Part shown: positions 5,915-19,053 of the stretch, piece after piece
Numbering within the stretch: position 1 is the stretch's first letter
Layout of the letters: every line of letters starts with the position of its first letter
NCBI RefSeq assembly: GCF_000724625.1
Contig: NZ_CP007139.1
Location: 2,356,001-2,420,000, forward strand
Source of the DNA: Fimbriimonas ginsengisoli Gsoil 348
GTDB lineage: Bacteria; Armatimonadota; Fimbriimonadia; Fimbriimonadales; Fimbriimonadaceae
DNA: 64,000 nt
Direction: 5' to 3'
Made by a program: the position numbers and the translations under genes
The notes under the pieces: generated by a model
The model's database searches: none
Told to the model about the DNA's origin: nothing
Seen by the model: the letters and a program-made list of their open reading frames with translations, nothing else

Positions 5915-6625
5915 ATGGCCGCGATTCCCGATCACACCCTGGTTCACGACCACGGCCATGATCCCGCGCTGGGGCACCAGTTCGAGAACATGGAGCAGCA
6001 GACCGAGAGCTACTTGGTCGGCATGTGGACGTTCCTCGCCCAGGAGGTCATGTTCTTCGGCGCGCTGTTCGTGACTTTCACGCTCTATCGGTGGAACTAT
6101 CAGGTTGACTTCTGGAAGGCCCACGAGCACCTGAACGTAGTCATGGGCGGCGTTAACACCTTCGTGCTGCTGGTGAGCTCGTTCTTCATGGTATTAGCGG
6201 TGCAAGGTGCGCAGCTCAAGAAGAGAGGTCAAGTGCTTACGTGCCTAACCCTCGTTCAAGCGTGCGCGTTCACGTTCCTTACGATCAAGTACTTCGAATA
6301 CTCGTCTAAGTTTGCGGACCACCTCTACCCCGGGGTCGGGTTCACCACGAATCCTGAGCATGTGCACGGCGCCAACCTAAACCACGCCCAGATCTTCTAC
6401 GGACTCTACTTCGGCATGACGGGCCTCCATGCGGTGCACATCATCGTGGGAATTATCGTGATTGCCGTCGTGATGTACCTGTGGTACAAGCGAGCCGCAT
6501 CGGTGACTCAAGACTTCGTCTACACCGAGATGGTCGGTCTTTACTGGCACTTCGTCGACCTTGTCTGGATCTTCCTATTCCCGTTGTTCTACCTCCAGGC
6601 GCCGCCCATTCCCGGCCTCAAGTAA
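5915..6625 (+). CDS. coxC: Cytochrome c oxidase subunit III
   Basis: 236 residues, start ATG preceded by AAAGGGAG inside the end of coxA. After a His-rich N-terminus come [24 protein letters not shown] and [18 protein letters not shown], all standard subunit III signatures including the conserved Glu of helix III and the terminal WHFVD helix. It supports proton uptake and stability of subunit I. Four bases separate it from coxA and two from the next gene, so it belongs to the same transcript. Confidence 0.95.
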
Positions 6626-6627
6626 CC

Positions 6628-7050
6628 ATGGCGAAATCACCCCTTCAACACGCTCATCACGTCGTTCCGACGTCGACTTACGTCATGACCTTCCTGGCGT
6701 TGGCGGCGCTGATGCTTCTAACGATCTTCGCCTCGTACTGGACGCTGCCTGGGGGCGTGCTGTCGAACAACATCCTGGCCATGGTCATCGCCTCGGCGAA
6801 GGCGTTCCTCGTCATCTGGATATTCATGGGGATCAAATGGGCGACTAAGCTGGCTCGGCTCTGGGCGGTTGCCGGCTTCATCGTCTTCCCGCTGATGTTC
6901 ATCATGTTCCAGGACTTCTTCGCCCGTCACAACGAGATCGTTCCGAGCTGGGGCGGCCAGCGAGAGTCGGCCCTCCCACGCGTCATGGACCCGGTTGGAA
7001 ACAGCGCTCCTGCCAAAGGCGCCAGCGCCGGCCTCCGCCCTCGAGGCTAA
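6628..7050 (+). CDS. Cytochrome c oxidase subunit IV-like small membrane protein
   Basis: 140 residues beginning MAKSPLQHAHHVVP. Three hydrophobic helices follow (YVMTFLALAALMLLTIFAS, MVIASAKAFLVIWIFMGIKW, LWAVAGFIVFPLMFIMF), the layout of bacterial subunit IV/CtaF proteins. The AKAFLVIWIFMGIKW segment resembles the family helix with a central Lys. The reading frame is open upstream, but the ATG at 6628, two bases after coxC ends, is the natural start. It is the last gene of the respiratory operon, 33 bases before a terminator. Confidence 0.85.
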   Translation: MAKSPLQHAHHVVPTSTYVMTFLALAALMLLTIFASYWTLPGGVLSNNILAMVIASAKAFLVIWIFMGIKWATKLARLWAVAGFIVFPLMFIMFQDFFARHNEIVPSWGGQRESALPRVMDPVGNSAPAKGASAGLRPRG

Positions 7051-7055
7051 CCCCC

Positions 7056-7082
7056 CGTGGCGCCGGCTTCCAGCCGGCAGCC
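7056..7082. repeat. Dispersed hairpin, TCC-loop family
   Basis: A hairpin with stem GCCGGCT / AGCCGGC and loop TCC, between the last oxidase gene and its terminator. The same design (variable perfect stem, TCC loop) recurs at 12934, 37841, 47915, 52852 and 57271. Confidence 0.6.
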
Positions 7083-7083
7083 C

Positions 7084-7118
7084 AAAGCTCTGGTCGCATA
7101 GTGACCAGAGCTTTTTTG
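7084..7118 (+). terminator. Rho-independent terminator of the ACIII-caa3 operon
   Basis: Perfect 12-bp stem AAAGCTCTGGTC / GACCAGAGCTTT with a 7-base loop at 7096-7102, ending in a run of T. It sits just after the last oxidase gene and is the clearest intrinsic terminator in the window. Confidence 0.88.
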
Positions 7119-7195
7119 TTAGGCCCGGCCTAACAAAGCGAAGGTCCACACAATTAGGAGAATGCCCAATACCTCCGAGCCCAGATACTGGACCA

Positions 7196-7490
7196 GCCCC
7201 GAAGGCGGCGACCTATCAAAGCTAAGGGTGCAGCGAAGCGGAACCCTGGTAACGAATCGGCCCAACCCCAAGCCCTGAAAGCGGCGACATCTGCACCTAT
7301 CTTATGGAAGTTGTTTGGGCTTACTGACTCCTCTTGCGGAGAGACGGTTGGATTGTGAACACGGCGGCTCCTGATATTGTTAGGGTGATATCGCCGCTTT
7401 CAGGGCTCAGAGCGTCTGTCGGCTCCTTTACCAGGGTTCCGCTTCGCTGCACCCTTAGCTTTGAGACATAGCCTCTTCGAGGCCGGCCGA
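7196..7490. repeat. Inverted pair of a dispersed about 100-bp repeat
   Basis: The gene-free stretch 7119-7500 holds two copies of one repeat in opposite directions. The left copy (about 7196-7295) carries CAAAGCTAAGGGTGCAGCG, GAACCCTGGTAACGA and AGCCCTGAAAGCGGCGA; the right copy (about 7388-7487) carries the complement of these blocks. The centre (7296-7387) is unique and codes for nothing convincing. A further copy lies at about 35970-36065. The right end finishes in a short GC-rich hairpin and a T run against the stop of plsC. Confidence 0.75.
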
Positions 7491-7500
7491 GGCGGTTTTT

Positions 7501-8142
7501 TTAGTCTTCGACCAGAGTCAGGAACTGCCCCTGAACCCAGGCAAGGAACTCCTCCGCCGAAGTTTCCTTTCCAAAGGTCCGGGGCTCGCCCCAGACCAGG
7601 GTTACCGTCCGGAAGGCCGGCCGCGGAATCGTCTTCCCGTACGGCATCATCCGTTGCGAACCGCTGATACCCACGCAGATCACCGGCGTTCCCGCCATGC
7701 GGGCGATCAGCGCAACACCCGGTTTCAGCTCTTGGAGCTCGCCGTCCTCGCTGATCTGACCCTCGGGAAAGATCCCGACCGCCTCCCCCGTCTTCAGAAG
7801 GTCGGCCGAAAACTTGAGCGCCTTGCGGTCGGGCTCTCCTCGTTTTACGGCGAACGCCCCAAAAAAGCGCATCAGCCGGCCGATCACCGGCAGATCGAAC
7901 AACTCGCTCTTCGCCATGAAATGAACCGGACGGCCGCACGCGTATTGCACGAGGATCGGGTCCATATCCGCGATGTGATTCGCCAAGATGAGCACTCCTC
8001 CCTCCTTCGGCACTCGGTACGCTCCGCGCACCTTTACGGGACCCAAGAGCACGAGTAGCGCTCCGGCGACCATTCGGCCAAGGGGAAGCCAAAACTTGCG
8101 GAATCCGGCGGGAAACGGACCGACGACCAGCTCATCGGCCAC
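7501..8142 (-). CDS. plsC: 1-acyl-sn-glycerol-3-phosphate acyltransferase (PlsC family)
   Basis: 213 residues. It contains the acyltransferase motifs HxxxxD (His56-Asp61 in ANHIADMDP) and FPEGQIS near residue 125, plus a hydrophobic N-terminal helix (MVAGALLVLLG) for membrane association. These enzymes add the second acyl chain to lysophosphatidic acid in phospholipid synthesis. The start overlaps the end of purN by 11 bases, so the two form a minus-strand operon. The exact substrate could also be another lysophospholipid. Confidence 0.88.
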   Translation of the reverse strand: MADELVVGPFPAGFRKFWLPLGRMVAGALLVLLGPVKVRGAYRVPKEGGVLILANHIADMDPILVQYACGRPVHFMAKSELFDLPVIGRLMRFFGAFAVKRGEPDRKALKFSADLLKTGEAVGIFPEGQISEDGELQELKPGVALIARMAGTPVICVGISGSQRMMPYGKTIPRPAFRTVTLVWGEPRTFGKETSAEEFLAWVQGQFLTLVED

Positions 8143-8704
8143 GTAACACCATGGCTACCGCCTCGGGAAACGCCTGGTGCTCCAACTTGAGCACGCGGGC
8201 GGCAAGGGTTTCCGGCGTATCTCCCGGCTCGACCGGGCATCGCTTCTGAAGCACGACCGGCCCCTCATCGTACTCGCTCGTCACCAAATGCACCGTGCAT
8301 CCGCTCTCCAACTCCCCCGCCTCGAGAACCGCCTTGTGGACTCGCAGGCCATACATCCCTTTGCCGCCGAACTTGGGAAGGAGGCTGGGGTGGATGTTGA
8401 GGACCCCTTTTGGGAAAGAGTGGAGAACAGCATCCGGAATTAGGCGGAGAAACCCCGCGAGGCAGAGTACGTCGCAGCCGGCGAATGCGCCCAGCAACTC
8501 CTCCGTGTAGTGCTCTCCCGGCGCGACGACCGCCGTCGGTAAGCCCATCTCTCGGGCCACCCCCAGCGCCGGCGCCTCCGCACTTGCCGCGACGACCCGC
8601 TTAACGTCCGCGTCGAGCCGGCCCTCGGCGCAGGCTCGGGCCAGCGCCGCCATATTGCTCCCCCGTCCCCGAGGCCCCACCAAAATTCCGATTCCCGCCT
8701 TCAC
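8132..8704 (-). CDS. purN: Phosphoribosylglycinamide formyltransferase PurN
   Basis: 190 residues of the formyltransferase fold. GILVGPRGRGSNMAAL is the phosphate-binding loop; GVLNIHPSLLPKFGGKGMYG carries the catalytic Asn and His; the Asp of TSEYDEGPVV completes the active site. It transfers a formyl group from 10-formyltetrahydrofolate to GAR in purine synthesis. The start is GTG at 8704 with TATAAC ending 8 bases upstream and no ribosome-binding site, so the message may have almost no leader. Confidence 0.92.
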   Translation of the reverse strand: MKAGIGILVGPRGRGSNMAALARACAEGRLDADVKRVVAASAEAPALGVAREMGLPTAVVAPGEHYTEELLGAFAGCDVLCLAGFLRLIPDAVLHSFPKGVLNIHPSLLPKFGGKGMYGLRVHKAVLEAGELESGCTVHLVTSEYDEGPVVLQKRCPVEPGDTPETLAARVLKLEHQAFPEAVAMVLRGR

Positions 8705-8822
8705 TCTGGTTAGTTATAGCGGTTCGGCGAGGGTGTACGGGGGACCAATTTAGTGAGACCTTGAATAGTGCGTCAAGCTTTTGCGAAGGGAAAGGCGGGT
8801 GGGGTGGTGCGGGCAACCCACG

Positions 8823-13271: not shown

Positions 13272-13306
13272 AGAATGACCGGCGCGAATTGCGCGCCGGT
13301 CATTCT
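13272..13306. terminator. Long hairpin downstream of the selenocysteine tRNA
   Basis: A perfect 14-bp stem, AGAATGACCGGCGC / GCGCCGGTCATTCT, with a 7-base loop. It lies 11 bases beyond the 3' end of the tRNA (transcribed leftward), where a terminator or processing stem is expected. A T run is missing on the minus strand and only weak (GTTT) on the plus strand. Confidence 0.55.
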
Positions 13307-13317
13307 GTTTAGAGTCT

Positions 13318-13412
13318 TGGCGGGAATGTGTGGGAATCGAACCCACCCGACGCCTTTGCGACGTCACACTGGTTTTGAAGACCAGGAGGCACACCAGCAC
13401 CCATTCACTCCC
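13318..13412 (-). tRNA. selC: tRNA-Sec (anticodon UCA)
   Basis: Read on the minus strand: acceptor strand GGGAGTGA, six-pair D-stem with the tetraloop TGGT, anticodon arm CTGGT-CTTCAAA-ACCAG with UCA at 13378-13376, a long variable arm (GACG..CGTC), T-arm GTGGG-TTCGATT-CCCAC, and an encoded GCCA 3' end. The long D-stem with four-base loop, the long acceptor and the UCA anticodon are diagnostic for selenocysteine tRNA. About 95 nt. It implies that SelA, SelB, SelD and at least one selenoprotein are encoded elsewhere; none is evident in this window. Confidence 0.93.
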
Positions 13413-13434
13413 GGTGGGATGCTACCTTTGTCGG

Positions 13435-13458
13435 GGCGTTGGGCGTTGGGCGTTGGGC
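13435..13458. repeat. Heptamer GGCGTTG array, left part
   Basis: Three units of GGCGTTG followed by GGC, interrupted by the IS element. The array resumes at 14702. Confidence 0.85.
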
Positions 13459-13512
13459 TGTAGTATCCCAGGATTCTGTACCAGTGGCTTAGAGGGAAAA
13501 TAGTGAAGCCAC

Positions 13513-13800
13513 ATGTCGGAATCGAAGTCGGGAAGGCGTCGAGTATTCGCGCCGGAGTTCAAGTTGCGTTTGGTGGTTCAGATCGTCTCGGGCCAGCGCA
13601 CGCTGGCGGATCTGAGCCGCGAGCACCAGATCAAAGACTCTTTGCTCGCGCGCTGGAGAGACCAGTTCTTGGAAAAGGCGCCCGAGATGTTCGGCGCCGC
13701 ACCCACCGGCCAGGAGCGTCTCGCCGAGCTCGAGCGGGAGATCGGCCGCCAACACATGGAGTTGGAGATCTTAAAAAAAGCGTCGCGTCGGCTCCTCTAG
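13513..13800 (+). CDS. IS3-family transposase OrfA
   Basis: 95 residues with a helix-turn-helix (RRRVFAPEFKLRLVVQIVSGQRTLADLSREHQI split over helices) and a C-terminal Leu/Glu coiled coil (ERLAELEREIGRQHMELEILKKA). It binds the terminal repeats. It ends in frame +1 relative to OrfB. The run of seven A at 13773-13779, just before its stop, is a classic -1 slip site that yields the OrfAB transposase. Confidence 0.9.
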   Translation: MSESKSGRRRVFAPEFKLRLVVQIVSGQRTLADLSREHQIKDSLLARWRDQFLEKAPEMFGAAPTGQERLAELEREIGRQHMELEILKKASRRLL

Positions 13801-14651
13801 AAGGGCGTCTGAAGCAGGCCCGAGCGCTCGCGGGTAAGTATCCGTTGCGCCTGGTGTGCCGCCTGCTCGGAGTCTCCCGCAGCTCGGCGCTCTACCGGGC
13901 GAAAGAGGAGCCGGACCTGGAAAGCCTGACGGTGACGATCCTTCACCTGCGGGCGAGCTTTCCTACCGCCGGCCTTCGGCTCATGCACGCCTACCTGGCT
14001 CGCCTGAGAGTGGCGGCGACCCGGTCGCAGGTGCGCACGGTCTACGTCCGCTTGGGGCTCCTGGGCAAACGGGCGCCGCCTCGGTCCAAGGGAACCACCG
14101 ACTCCCGGCACGAGCATCCTCGCTATCCCAACCTCATACGGGATCTCGTGCCGTCGTATCCGAACCAGGTGTGGGTGGCCGACACCACCGAGCTCGTAGC
14201 CGGCGGGCGCCGGACCTTCCTCGCGCTGGTGGAAGACCTGTTCACCCGCCGAGTCGTCGGGGTTTCGCTCTCCTTTGCCAACGACTCCTGGCTGACGCTC
14301 TCGGCGCTCGATATGGCGCTTAGCCGGGAAACTCCCGCCATCCACCACTCCGACCAAGGCAAGCCCTACGCTTCGGGAGTCTATACCCGGCGCCTTCTCG
14401 CCCAGGGAGTCACCCTCAGCATGGCCCGAGTCGGATGCGCTTGGGAGAACGGACATGCCGAACGTCTGAACCGAACCTTCAAAGAAGAGGAGATCTTAAG
14501 GAGCGAGTATGAAAGCCTGAACGAGGCCAAAGAGTCCATCGCCGCCTACGCAAAGCACTACAATGAAAAGCGCATCCATATGAGCCTTGGCTACCGAACC
14601 CCTAACGAGGTGCTCCAAAGCCATCGCCAAGACCAGCCGGACGGGGAGTAA
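13771..14651 (+). CDS. IS3-family transposase OrfB (DDE integrase domain), made by -1 frameshift
   Basis: The frame opens upstream, but protein-like sequence begins at the slip site (LEGRLKQARALAGKYPLRLVCRLLGVSRSSALYR). The rve integrase core has the catalytic triad: Asp in WVADTTELV, Asp in AIHHSDQGKPYAS and Glu in NGHAERLNRTFKEEEI. The ending HMSLGYRTPNEV is typical of the family. It is translated as a fusion with OrfA through the A7 site at 13773-13779. All key residues are present, so the element may be active. Confidence 0.9.
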
Positions 14652-14701
14652 CAACCCCCATAGAAACAACGCCCGCTGGTACAGAGAATTGGGAAGCTAC
14701 A

Positions 14702-14729
14702 GGCGTTGGGCGTTGGGCGTTGGGCGTTG
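14702..14729. repeat. Heptamer GGCGTTG array, right part
   Basis: Four GGCGTTG units continuing the array broken by the IS element. The same heptamer occurs three times at 33316-33336. Confidence 0.85.
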
Positions 14730-14730
14730 C

Positions 14731-14940
14731 GGAGCCTTCGGAGCCTTCGGAGCCTTCGGAGCCTTCGGAGCCTTCGGAGCCTTCGGAGCCTTCGACAGTG
14801 CTAGGCATTACCCTAATGCTCCCTCGCTCCGCATGCTCCGACAGCTCCGAAGCGAAGCGCTGCTCCGAACGCTCCCCGCGAAGCGGGCAGCGGTAGCTCC
14901 GATAGCTCCGATAGCTCCGAAGCAAAGCGGGCTCCGAGCG
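14731..14940. repeat. 9-base tandem repeat GGAGCCTTC x7 with an inverted companion array
   Basis: Seven perfect units of GGAGCCTTC at 14731-14793, then degenerate sequence holding several GCTCCGA blocks and three units of TAGCTCCGA at 14894-14920. GCTCCGA is the complement of the TCGGAGC core of the first array, so the two halves can pair. No spacers of CRISPR length exist. It abuts the stop of the minus-strand gene at 14941. Confidence 0.85.
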
Positions 14941-17355: not shown

Positions 17356-17549
17356 TTTCTTACCTACCTCTTTTGCCCTCTCCCCAATCTTTCCTCGGCT
17401 CTCGCCGTTCTCCTCCTATCCTTGGAAGGTCGATCGAAACGAAAACCTGGTAACGTTCCGGACGTACGACTTCGGCGGTTGGTTCAATTGGACCTAACGC
17501 CGTCGTTGGCTGTTGTTTCACCGTAACGAACTGGGATAGTCAACACGTC

Positions 17550-18524
17550 ATGAATGGTATGACCTGTCCGCGATGTGGTCGGCCGGTAAACCCGAATGTT
17601 GCGCAGTGCCCGCACTGCGGACAGCCGTTGCGCCCCGCGGCTCCTGCCGCGGTGACGATCGCCAACGCCACCCTCGCCACCGGCGCGCTCCAAAACGCCT
17701 TCGAGAGCCAGCGCCGTCGAAACGTCATCATCGCCTCCATCGTTGCCGCCCTGGCCCTGTTGTTCGCCATCATCATGGGGCTCCGCGCGGCGGGAATCCT
17801 CGGCGCCAGCGGCAACCGCCCGGGCGACCTGTTGAACGCGAAGGGAAGCATGCCGACGCCGGTCCTGATGGCGCCCGGAGCAACCGCTCCGCGCGTTCTG
17901 GACGCCAGCGCTCAGAGAGTGGCGGAACTGCGCATGCCGCAGGACGTTTTCGACTGGCTGAAACATCTCCAAAAATGCGAGGAACGGAAGAACCAGCTGA
18001 TCGGCGACGAATTTACTGAGATGCAGGTCTTCCAGCAGAAACTATCCGTCATGGGCGCGGGAATCGGTTTGGGCGATCCTTTCGAGCAATCCAAGGACGG
18101 AAAGGACGATCAGGCTCCGGGCTCGTACACATCGGGCAAGATCCTGGACATGCGCCCGCAGTGGCAAGAGCTGACGAATTTCTTCCACTCCAAGAAACCG
18201 CCGGCGGAGTGCCAACCGATCGCGGACGACTTCGACAACGGACTCTCGGAAATCCAAGGCGAGATCGGCGATATCAGCGACATGTTGAACCAGGCCGACG
18301 TCGACCCCGAGAAAATGCTGCAGGCGGCCAAGAAGATGCAGGGCAAGAGCTACAACATCGACCGCTACCTGATGAAGTGCGACAAGAAGCTGAGCGGGAT
18401 CTGCGCCAAGTACAACGTCAACAAGTGGTTCAACATCAATCCCGATCCGATGGCAGGCGGCCTAACCGGGAAGATGGGAACCAACGTTCCGGGCGGATTT
18501 ATCGGAGCCGGTGGCGGACAGTAA
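17550..18524 (+). CDS. Zinc-ribbon membrane protein of unknown function
   Basis: 324 residues. An N-terminal zinc ribbon (CPRCGRPVNPNVAQCPHCGQ, two CxxC pairs) is followed by a membrane helix at about residues 52-75 (VIIASIVAALALLFAIIMGL) and a long extracytoplasmic helical region. The end is Gly/Met/Asn-rich. The zinc ribbon would be cytoplasmic. It overlaps the SprT-like gene by 14 bases, so the two are probably translationally coupled. Confidence 0.65.
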   Translation: MNGMTCPRCGRPVNPNVAQCPHCGQPLRPAAPAAVTIANATLATGALQNAFESQRRRNVIIASIVAALALLFAIIMGLRAAGILGASGNRPGDLLNAKGSMPTPVLMAPGATAPRVLDASAQRVAELRMPQDVFDWLKHLQKCEERKNQLIGDEFTEMQVFQQKLSVMGAGIGLGDPFEQSKDGKDDQAPGSYTSGKILDMRPQWQELTNFFHSKKPPAECQPIADDFDNGLSEIQGEIGDISDMLNQADVDPEKMLQAAKKMQGKSYNIDRYLMKCDKKLSGICAKYNVNKWFNINPDPMAGGLTGKMGTNVPGGFIGAGGGQ

Positions 18525-19053
18525 ACGCGCGGCCTCCGGCCGAGGAGAAAGCGAAGCTTCCGGCGTGGCGAGCGTAACCGCGCTTCGAGAAGCGGCTGAA
18601 TTGGCGCTTGAGGAGGCAGTGAACCTCTTTCCGCTTCCGTACGTGCCGATCCTTATTTGGAAAGGGTATCGCGTCACCGCGGGAATGGCTTATTACCGAA
18701 GCGGGGCGATCGGATTGTCGACCCGGGTGCTTCAGACGCCGGAGGCGGTGCGGGAGACCCTTCTGCATGAGTACGCGCATTTGCTTGCCGTCCACCGTCA
18801 TGGGAAGAAAGCAGCGAACCACGGCGAGTTTTGGCGTCAAGCGATGCGAGACCTGGGTCAAGCGCCGCAGGTCCGACACTCGTACGAGGTGGAACGAAAC
18901 GTCCCGCGCCAGCAGGTGACGTACGTCTGCATCAAGTGCGGCAAACCATTCGTCCGCGCCCGCCGCCTCCCCAAGCGGCAACGCTACATCCACCGCAACT
19001 GCGGCGGGGACCTGCGTTTGCAGAGCATCCAACCCATCGAAAGGAAAAGCTAA
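18511..19053 (+). CDS. SprT-like zinc metallopeptidase domain protein
   Basis: 180 residues from GTG 18511. The active-site motif HEYAH (LLHEYAHLLAVHRHGKKAANHGEFW) gives HExxH plus a downstream His, as in SprT/Spartan-like gluzincins. A C-terminal zinc ribbon has CIKCGK and a later single Cys (NCGG). Family members act on DNA-protein crosslinks or are poorly known. A convergent hairpin lies after the stop. Confidence 0.8.
   Translation: MADSKRAASGRGESEASGVASVTALREAAELALEEAVNLFPLPYVPILIWKGYRVTAGMAYYRSGAIGLSTRVLQTPEAVRETLLHEYAHLLAVHRHGKKAANHGEFWRQAMRDLGQAPQVRHSYEVERNVPRQQVTYVCIKCGKPFVRARRLPKRQRYIHRNCGGDLRLQSIQPIERKS

Follow-up and report, generated by a model that had tools for sequence, protein, structure and literature searches.

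Selenocysteine (Sec) is used by about one-fourth of sequenced bacteria (PMC9312934), and its insertion through seryl-tRNA synthetase, SelA, SelD and SelB is established bacterial biochemistry (PMC13188914). Pair C7-G66 of E. coli tRNA-Sec is reported to be an element for recognition by SelB and rejection by EF-Tu (PMC9976931), some bacterial tRNA-Sec have 7+5 stems as another departure from 8+5 (PMC5330540), and in tRNAs generally the helix is not disrupted by occasional acceptor-stem mismatches (PMC7609411). A UGC-containing TlpA family and UxxC thioredoxin-like families are among the selenoproteins listed for prokaryotes (PMC13188914). Here, we describe a tRNA-Sec gene and its protein partners in Fimbriimonas ginsengisoli Gsoil 348. 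Its genome paper (PMC4072686) lists tRNAs covering all 20 amino acids and has no word beginning with 'selen' in its main text. Words beginning with 'armatimonad' were likewise absent from two reviews of prokaryotic selenoproteins (PMC13188914, PMC9312934), and a title and abstract search, which is weak evidence, found no paper describing Sec use in Armatimonadota. The window is the whole 64,000-nucleotide stretch analysed, and its features at this locus are as follows.

13318..13412, (-) strand: tRNA-Sec gene, 95 nt, with encoded CCA (ARAGORN, Rfam RF01852, fold)
13376..13378, (-) strand: UCA anticodon (ARAGORN, gene position 35)
13405..13405, (-) strand: eighth acceptor position, 5' side (A)
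13329..13329, (-) strand: eighth acceptor position, 3' side (A), giving an A-A mismatch
13419..13424, (-) strand: -10-like hexamer TAGCAT, 6 nt before the mature 5' end, at chance level

ARAGORN reported tRNA-SeC with anticodon TCA at 13318-13412 (-) as the sole tRNA gene in the window. RF01852 matched 13322-13412 over model positions 1-91 of 91 with 73.7 bits (E 3.1e-13), above its gathering score of 47 bits; that score alone is a weak criterion because tRNA-Ser genes here reach 48 bits, the two matches listed next (48.2 and 48.0 bits, among 10 in the whole genome at E 0.001 or better) being tRNA-Ser genes. The fold (-39.8 kcal/mol, z -2.52) has an acceptor stem of 7 pairs, a D-stem of 6 pairs with a 4-base loop, a variable arm of 7 pairs and a T-stem of 5 pairs, and the gene ends in GCCA, which places G at discriminator position 73. 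Searching by tRNA-Sec pattern gave one match in the window and none in 100 shuffles. An earlier note made from the letters alone had read a tRNA-Sec here from the UCA anticodon, six-pair D-stem, long variable arm and CCA, and ARAGORN, RF01852 and the fold all agree: 13318-13412 (-) is an ordinary bacterial tRNA-Sec gene.

The eight acceptor positions of an 8+5 helix are present, with A-A rather than a pair at the eighth. The mismatch singled out by the earlier note is thus confirmed, but it is no peculiarity of this gene. Of the 121 armatimonadotal genomes, 64 have a tRNA-Sec gene; in the 49 such genes that were read, a standard eighth pair is absent from 43, and the 3' base at that position is A in 40. 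A wider bacterial survey, in which 118 stretches yielded 118 readable matches (L138 was lost at an edge and L233 counted twice), was reduced to 105 by dropping 13 matches with poor acceptor pairing, with 5'-end shifts of up to 2 allowed; its scan requires fixed loop letters, which makes it a sample, and at least two Armatimonadota records lie inside it (L171, L205). Many of these genes have no standard eighth pair: among the 105 matches listed and kept, 57 are mismatched, 47 Watson-Crick and 1 wobble, and a stricter count, again among the matches listed (n=59), gave 32, 26 and 1. Because loss of the eighth pair is frequent both in the phylum and in the wider sample, the A-A is ordinary and full 8+5 pairing is not family-defining. 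These counts suggest that the non-pair is systematic in the phylum and, by the wider sample, that the same holds for many bacteria, which must by implication do without an eighth pair of the C7-G66 type. No treatment of a mismatched tRNA-Sec eighth pair was found in the literature searched, and we do not claim that such mismatches were unknown.

The protein partners are encoded elsewhere on the single 5,231,762 bp contig, in which the window spans 2.356-2.420 Mb. An open selA frame lies at 4.87 Mb (Pfam SelA, E 2.5e-120), an open selB at 0.57 Mb (616 aa; its domains are of the EF-Tu-like and SelB winged-helix kinds; selB was searched for in the Fimbriimonas ginsengisoli genome), and selD at 2.56 Mb, open apart from one in-frame TGA. 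The remark that no sel gene lies near the tRNA therefore holds for all three, while the suggestion that the tRNA would be a relic if all Sec machinery were absent falls away, selA, selB and selD occurring together in this one genome as the Sec trait requires. SelD, 337 residues long, scores 358.5 bits against TIGR00476 (cut-off 125), and its TGA sits in the N-terminal motif SCAGUASKLG, at what we take to be the catalytic Cys/Sec site. Across the 121 genomes, 55 of 66 SelD rows over the cut-off contain one TGA, three of the 11 without it being matches that begin beyond the site; in 22 that were read, the TGA lies in the N-terminal G-U/C motif. Selenouridine synthase had no match in this genome, so SelD most likely serves Sec.

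For co-occurrence, tRNA-Sec was counted at E <= 1e-11 (>= 61.6 bits) and selD over its cut-off, and RF01852 matches at or below 53.1 bits were taken as other long-armed tRNAs, two of which were checked. With some of the 121 genomes incomplete, tRNA-Sec, selA and selD were all present in 63, all absent in 53 (including G120, whose selD fragment falls below the cut-off) and mixed in 5 (G012, G054, G067, G071, G116). By rank, 5 of the 20 genus members, F. ginsengisoli among them, have all three; outside the genus but within the family the count is 33 of 53, in the rest of the order 10 of 28, and in the remainder of the phylum 15 of 20. The trait is as patchy as had been expected, and repeated loss of an ancestral Sec trait is the simplest reading of these presence and absence counts. 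One mixed genome of the same genus, G012, encodes a SelD without TGA and has neither a tRNA-Sec-grade match nor selA; its SelD may serve another selenium use.

An insertion element at 13458-14702, which starts about 45 bp before the 5' end of the tRNA-Sec gene on its upstream side, has 30-nt terminal inverted repeats (77% complementary), an HTH_Tnp_1 protein and an rve integrase frame, and presumably is of a type resembling IS3. It lies within a GGGCGTT tandem array, with 24-nt copies on both its sides; a tandem 9-mer array (CGGAGCCTT) adjoins it at 14730-14803, with inverted partners downstream. Just 3' of the tRNA, a strong palindrome at 13273-13305 (GAATGACCGGCGCG...CGCGCCGGTCATTC) lacks a T run, and a terminator scan found nothing there; it is possibly a processing or termination signal. 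The flanking genes at 5915-8713 and 17454-19053 are conserved in L079 of G003, another Sec-using member of the genus, where the orientation of the tRNA-Sec is reversed relative to them, a sign of local inversion or of relocation. A promoter scan upstream of the tRNA found no consensus promoter, which counts against a working system; the best -35/-10 pair has 6 of 12 matches, and about half of shuffles score as high.

With the element so close and no evident promoter, with selA, selB and selD all distant, and with 15 of the 20 genus genomes lacking both a tRNA-Sec-grade match and selA, the isolated tRNA might be taken for the relic of a lost Sec trait. We consider this very unlikely: selA and selB are open, selD is open except for its Sec codon and itself needs Sec, a second selenoprotein is predicted, and the tRNA folds normally but for an eighth pair that most relatives lack too.

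The selD TGA is followed by two hairpins, written by eye from single folds. A narrow SelD motif missed 8 of 31 loci and a wider one gave 22 sequences with U; across these 22, 81.5% of cells are paired, and covariation scores 0.348, compared with a mean of 0.164 in shuffles (0/500 as high) and 0.057-0.116 in six slid versions. Coarser counts separate less sharply: pairs changed on both sides number 9, with slid versions reaching 8 and 26/500 shuffles doing as well; for further pair types 13/500 shuffles do so. RNAalifold on the 22 sequences returned no consensus structure. Mean hairpin z is -1.85 for 20 sequences with U versus -0.79 for 3 with C, and in this species alone a modest -2.11 (8/200 shuffles as good). 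SelD had been named among the genes to check for a TGA with a hairpin after it, and both are borne out, the hairpins through covariation across relatives.

The second predicted user came from a search of this genome for in-frame TGA in five families (SelD, Fdh-alpha-, AhpC-TSA-, AhpD- and thioredoxin-like); the list of its selenoproteins is therefore incomplete. One of 29 AhpC-TSA-like matches and one of 19 thioredoxin-like matches contain a TGA, and both are the same TlpA/ResA-like gene. Read through the TGA, it gives 164 residues with FWAFWUGPCKASMPELKK and redox motif WUGPC; its hydrophobic N-terminus resembles, by eye, an export signal, and the protein is probably exported. With its U read as C for scanning, it reaches the cut-off of none of the NCBIfam models listed for it, ResA (88.7 vs 170) and NF041054 (WAxxUGC ResA-like; 39.2 vs 300 bits) included, and a predicted TlpA-like selenoprotein subfamily that no NCBIfam model matches is a modest further result of this work.

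At least 14 TlpA-like matches from at least 13 other genomes have one TGA, and in ten loci read outside this genome it occupies the first redox position. Eleven of the 13 genomes listed have a tRNA-Sec-grade match; G090 and G120, which do not, are 73% and 88% complete. The best TlpA-like match of G025, a genome in which neither a tRNA-Sec-grade match nor selA was found, reads WCGPC. After the TGA, RNAalifold predicted a helix of 8 pairs, and in 10 sequences its covariation is 0.436 against 0.184 in shuffles (0/500 as high) and 0.069-0.139 when slid; both-side changes and further pair types are matched by 4/500 and 37/500 shuffles, and the single-sequence z in this species is a modest -1.26 (27/200 as good). 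Both selD and the TlpA-like gene thus combine a TGA at a redox position with a SECIS-like hairpin, the support for the hairpins being comparative. In G016 of the same genus, L271 carries a TlpA-like WUGPC in a 385-codon open frame, only 41% identical to the F. ginsengisoli protein, and by this identity selenoprotein sets may differ between close relatives.

Other families gave no further user in this genome. Formate dehydrogenase, proposed by the earlier note as a place to look, yielded six Fdh-alpha-like matches, none over the cut-off and none with TGA, and neither of two AhpD-like matches has one; the other 28 AhpC-TSA-like matches have no TGA. A codon-scored scan of the window and some genome loci, insensitive enough to miss selD's own TGA in L010, listed nine TGA candidates, of which the TlpA-like one alone was judged credible; the sole candidate in the window, 24978 (-), runs antisense to a stop-to-stop frame of 433 codons and was rejected. 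Applied to loci of relatives, the scan returned SelD and one more credible case, at L070:2576 (+) beside selD in G058, which belongs to another genus: an AhpC-TSA_2 frame (PF13911, 50.7 bits, cut-off 27) with its TGA in FLRHFGULFAREQ, a candidate further selenoprotein. At L049:2943 (-) of G102, one TGA interrupts a frame resembling, by eye, a REP-associated transposase, which is either a broken gene or a recoded one.

The absence of TGA from the Fdh-alpha-like and AhpD-like matches, and of any selenouridine synthase match, would also suit a Sec system that makes SelD alone, as a self-maintaining loop without other products; we give this very little credence, since in the TlpA-like gene the TGA is conserved and followed by a covarying hairpin, and G025 has a counterpart with Cys. 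Weakest is a general suppressor that makes TGA a sense codon genome-wide, which the UGA-reading anticodon would permit and which we practically dismiss given the tRNA-Sec structure, the encoded SelB, an in-frame TGA in one gene among the 29 AhpC-TSA-like and 19 thioredoxin-like matches, and the lone antisense candidate of the insensitive window scan. Our verdict is that UGA is recoded in particular genes rather than genome-wide. The warning that in-frame TGA codons of this genome may not be stops very likely holds for some of them, those of selD and the TlpA-like gene, as judged from their sequences; as a general doubt it does not stand.

We therefore regard it as very likely that the tRNA-Sec gene is part of a working bacterial Sec-decoding system in Fimbriimonas ginsengisoli. 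Seryl-tRNA synthetase would charge the tRNA with serine, SelA would convert Ser-tRNA-Sec to Sec-tRNA-Sec with selenophosphate supplied by SelD, and SelB would bring Sec-tRNA-Sec to UGA codons with a SECIS hairpin after them, the users predicted so far being SelD itself and the TlpA/ResA-like WUGPC thioredoxin. From this gene set we infer transcription and charging of the tRNA and actual Sec insertion. More tentatively, and with rather more doubt than belief, we propose that a probably exported TlpA/ResA-like WUGPC subfamily in Fimbriimonadia helps to keep a Sec trait that is often missing, and that SelB of the phylum recognises tRNA-Sec without C7-G66.

These results indicate that F. ginsengisoli, the first of the Fimbriimonadia to be sequenced completely, uses the 21st amino acid, a trait unmentioned in the main text of its genome paper. 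At least two genes of this species may be shortened by gene calling that takes TGA as a stop, and a single genus in which 5 of 20 genomes have the trait offers a close comparison for Sec retention versus loss.

Set beside bacterial tRNA-Sec (RF01852), the Fimbriimonas tRNA shares the UCA anticodon, 6-pair D-stem, 4-base loop, long variable arm, G before CCA and, by position, the 8+5 geometry; it differs from that of E. coli in having A-A where the latter has C7-G66 (PMC9976931). Like other SelA/SelB/SelD Sec-decoding systems, the genome encodes all three protein partners. Its SelD matches Sec-containing SelD (TIGR00476) in scoring above the family cut-off and in having TGA in the conserved N-terminal G-U/C motif, with no notable difference. 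The predicted TlpA/ResA-like protein resembles the thioredoxin-like selenoproteins of TlpA/ResA type (NF041054; PMC13188914) in its thioredoxin-like domain and in having Sec where the redox motif has its first cysteine, and differs from the UGC-containing TlpA family, as that family is described in PMC13188914, in having WUGPC rather than UGC.
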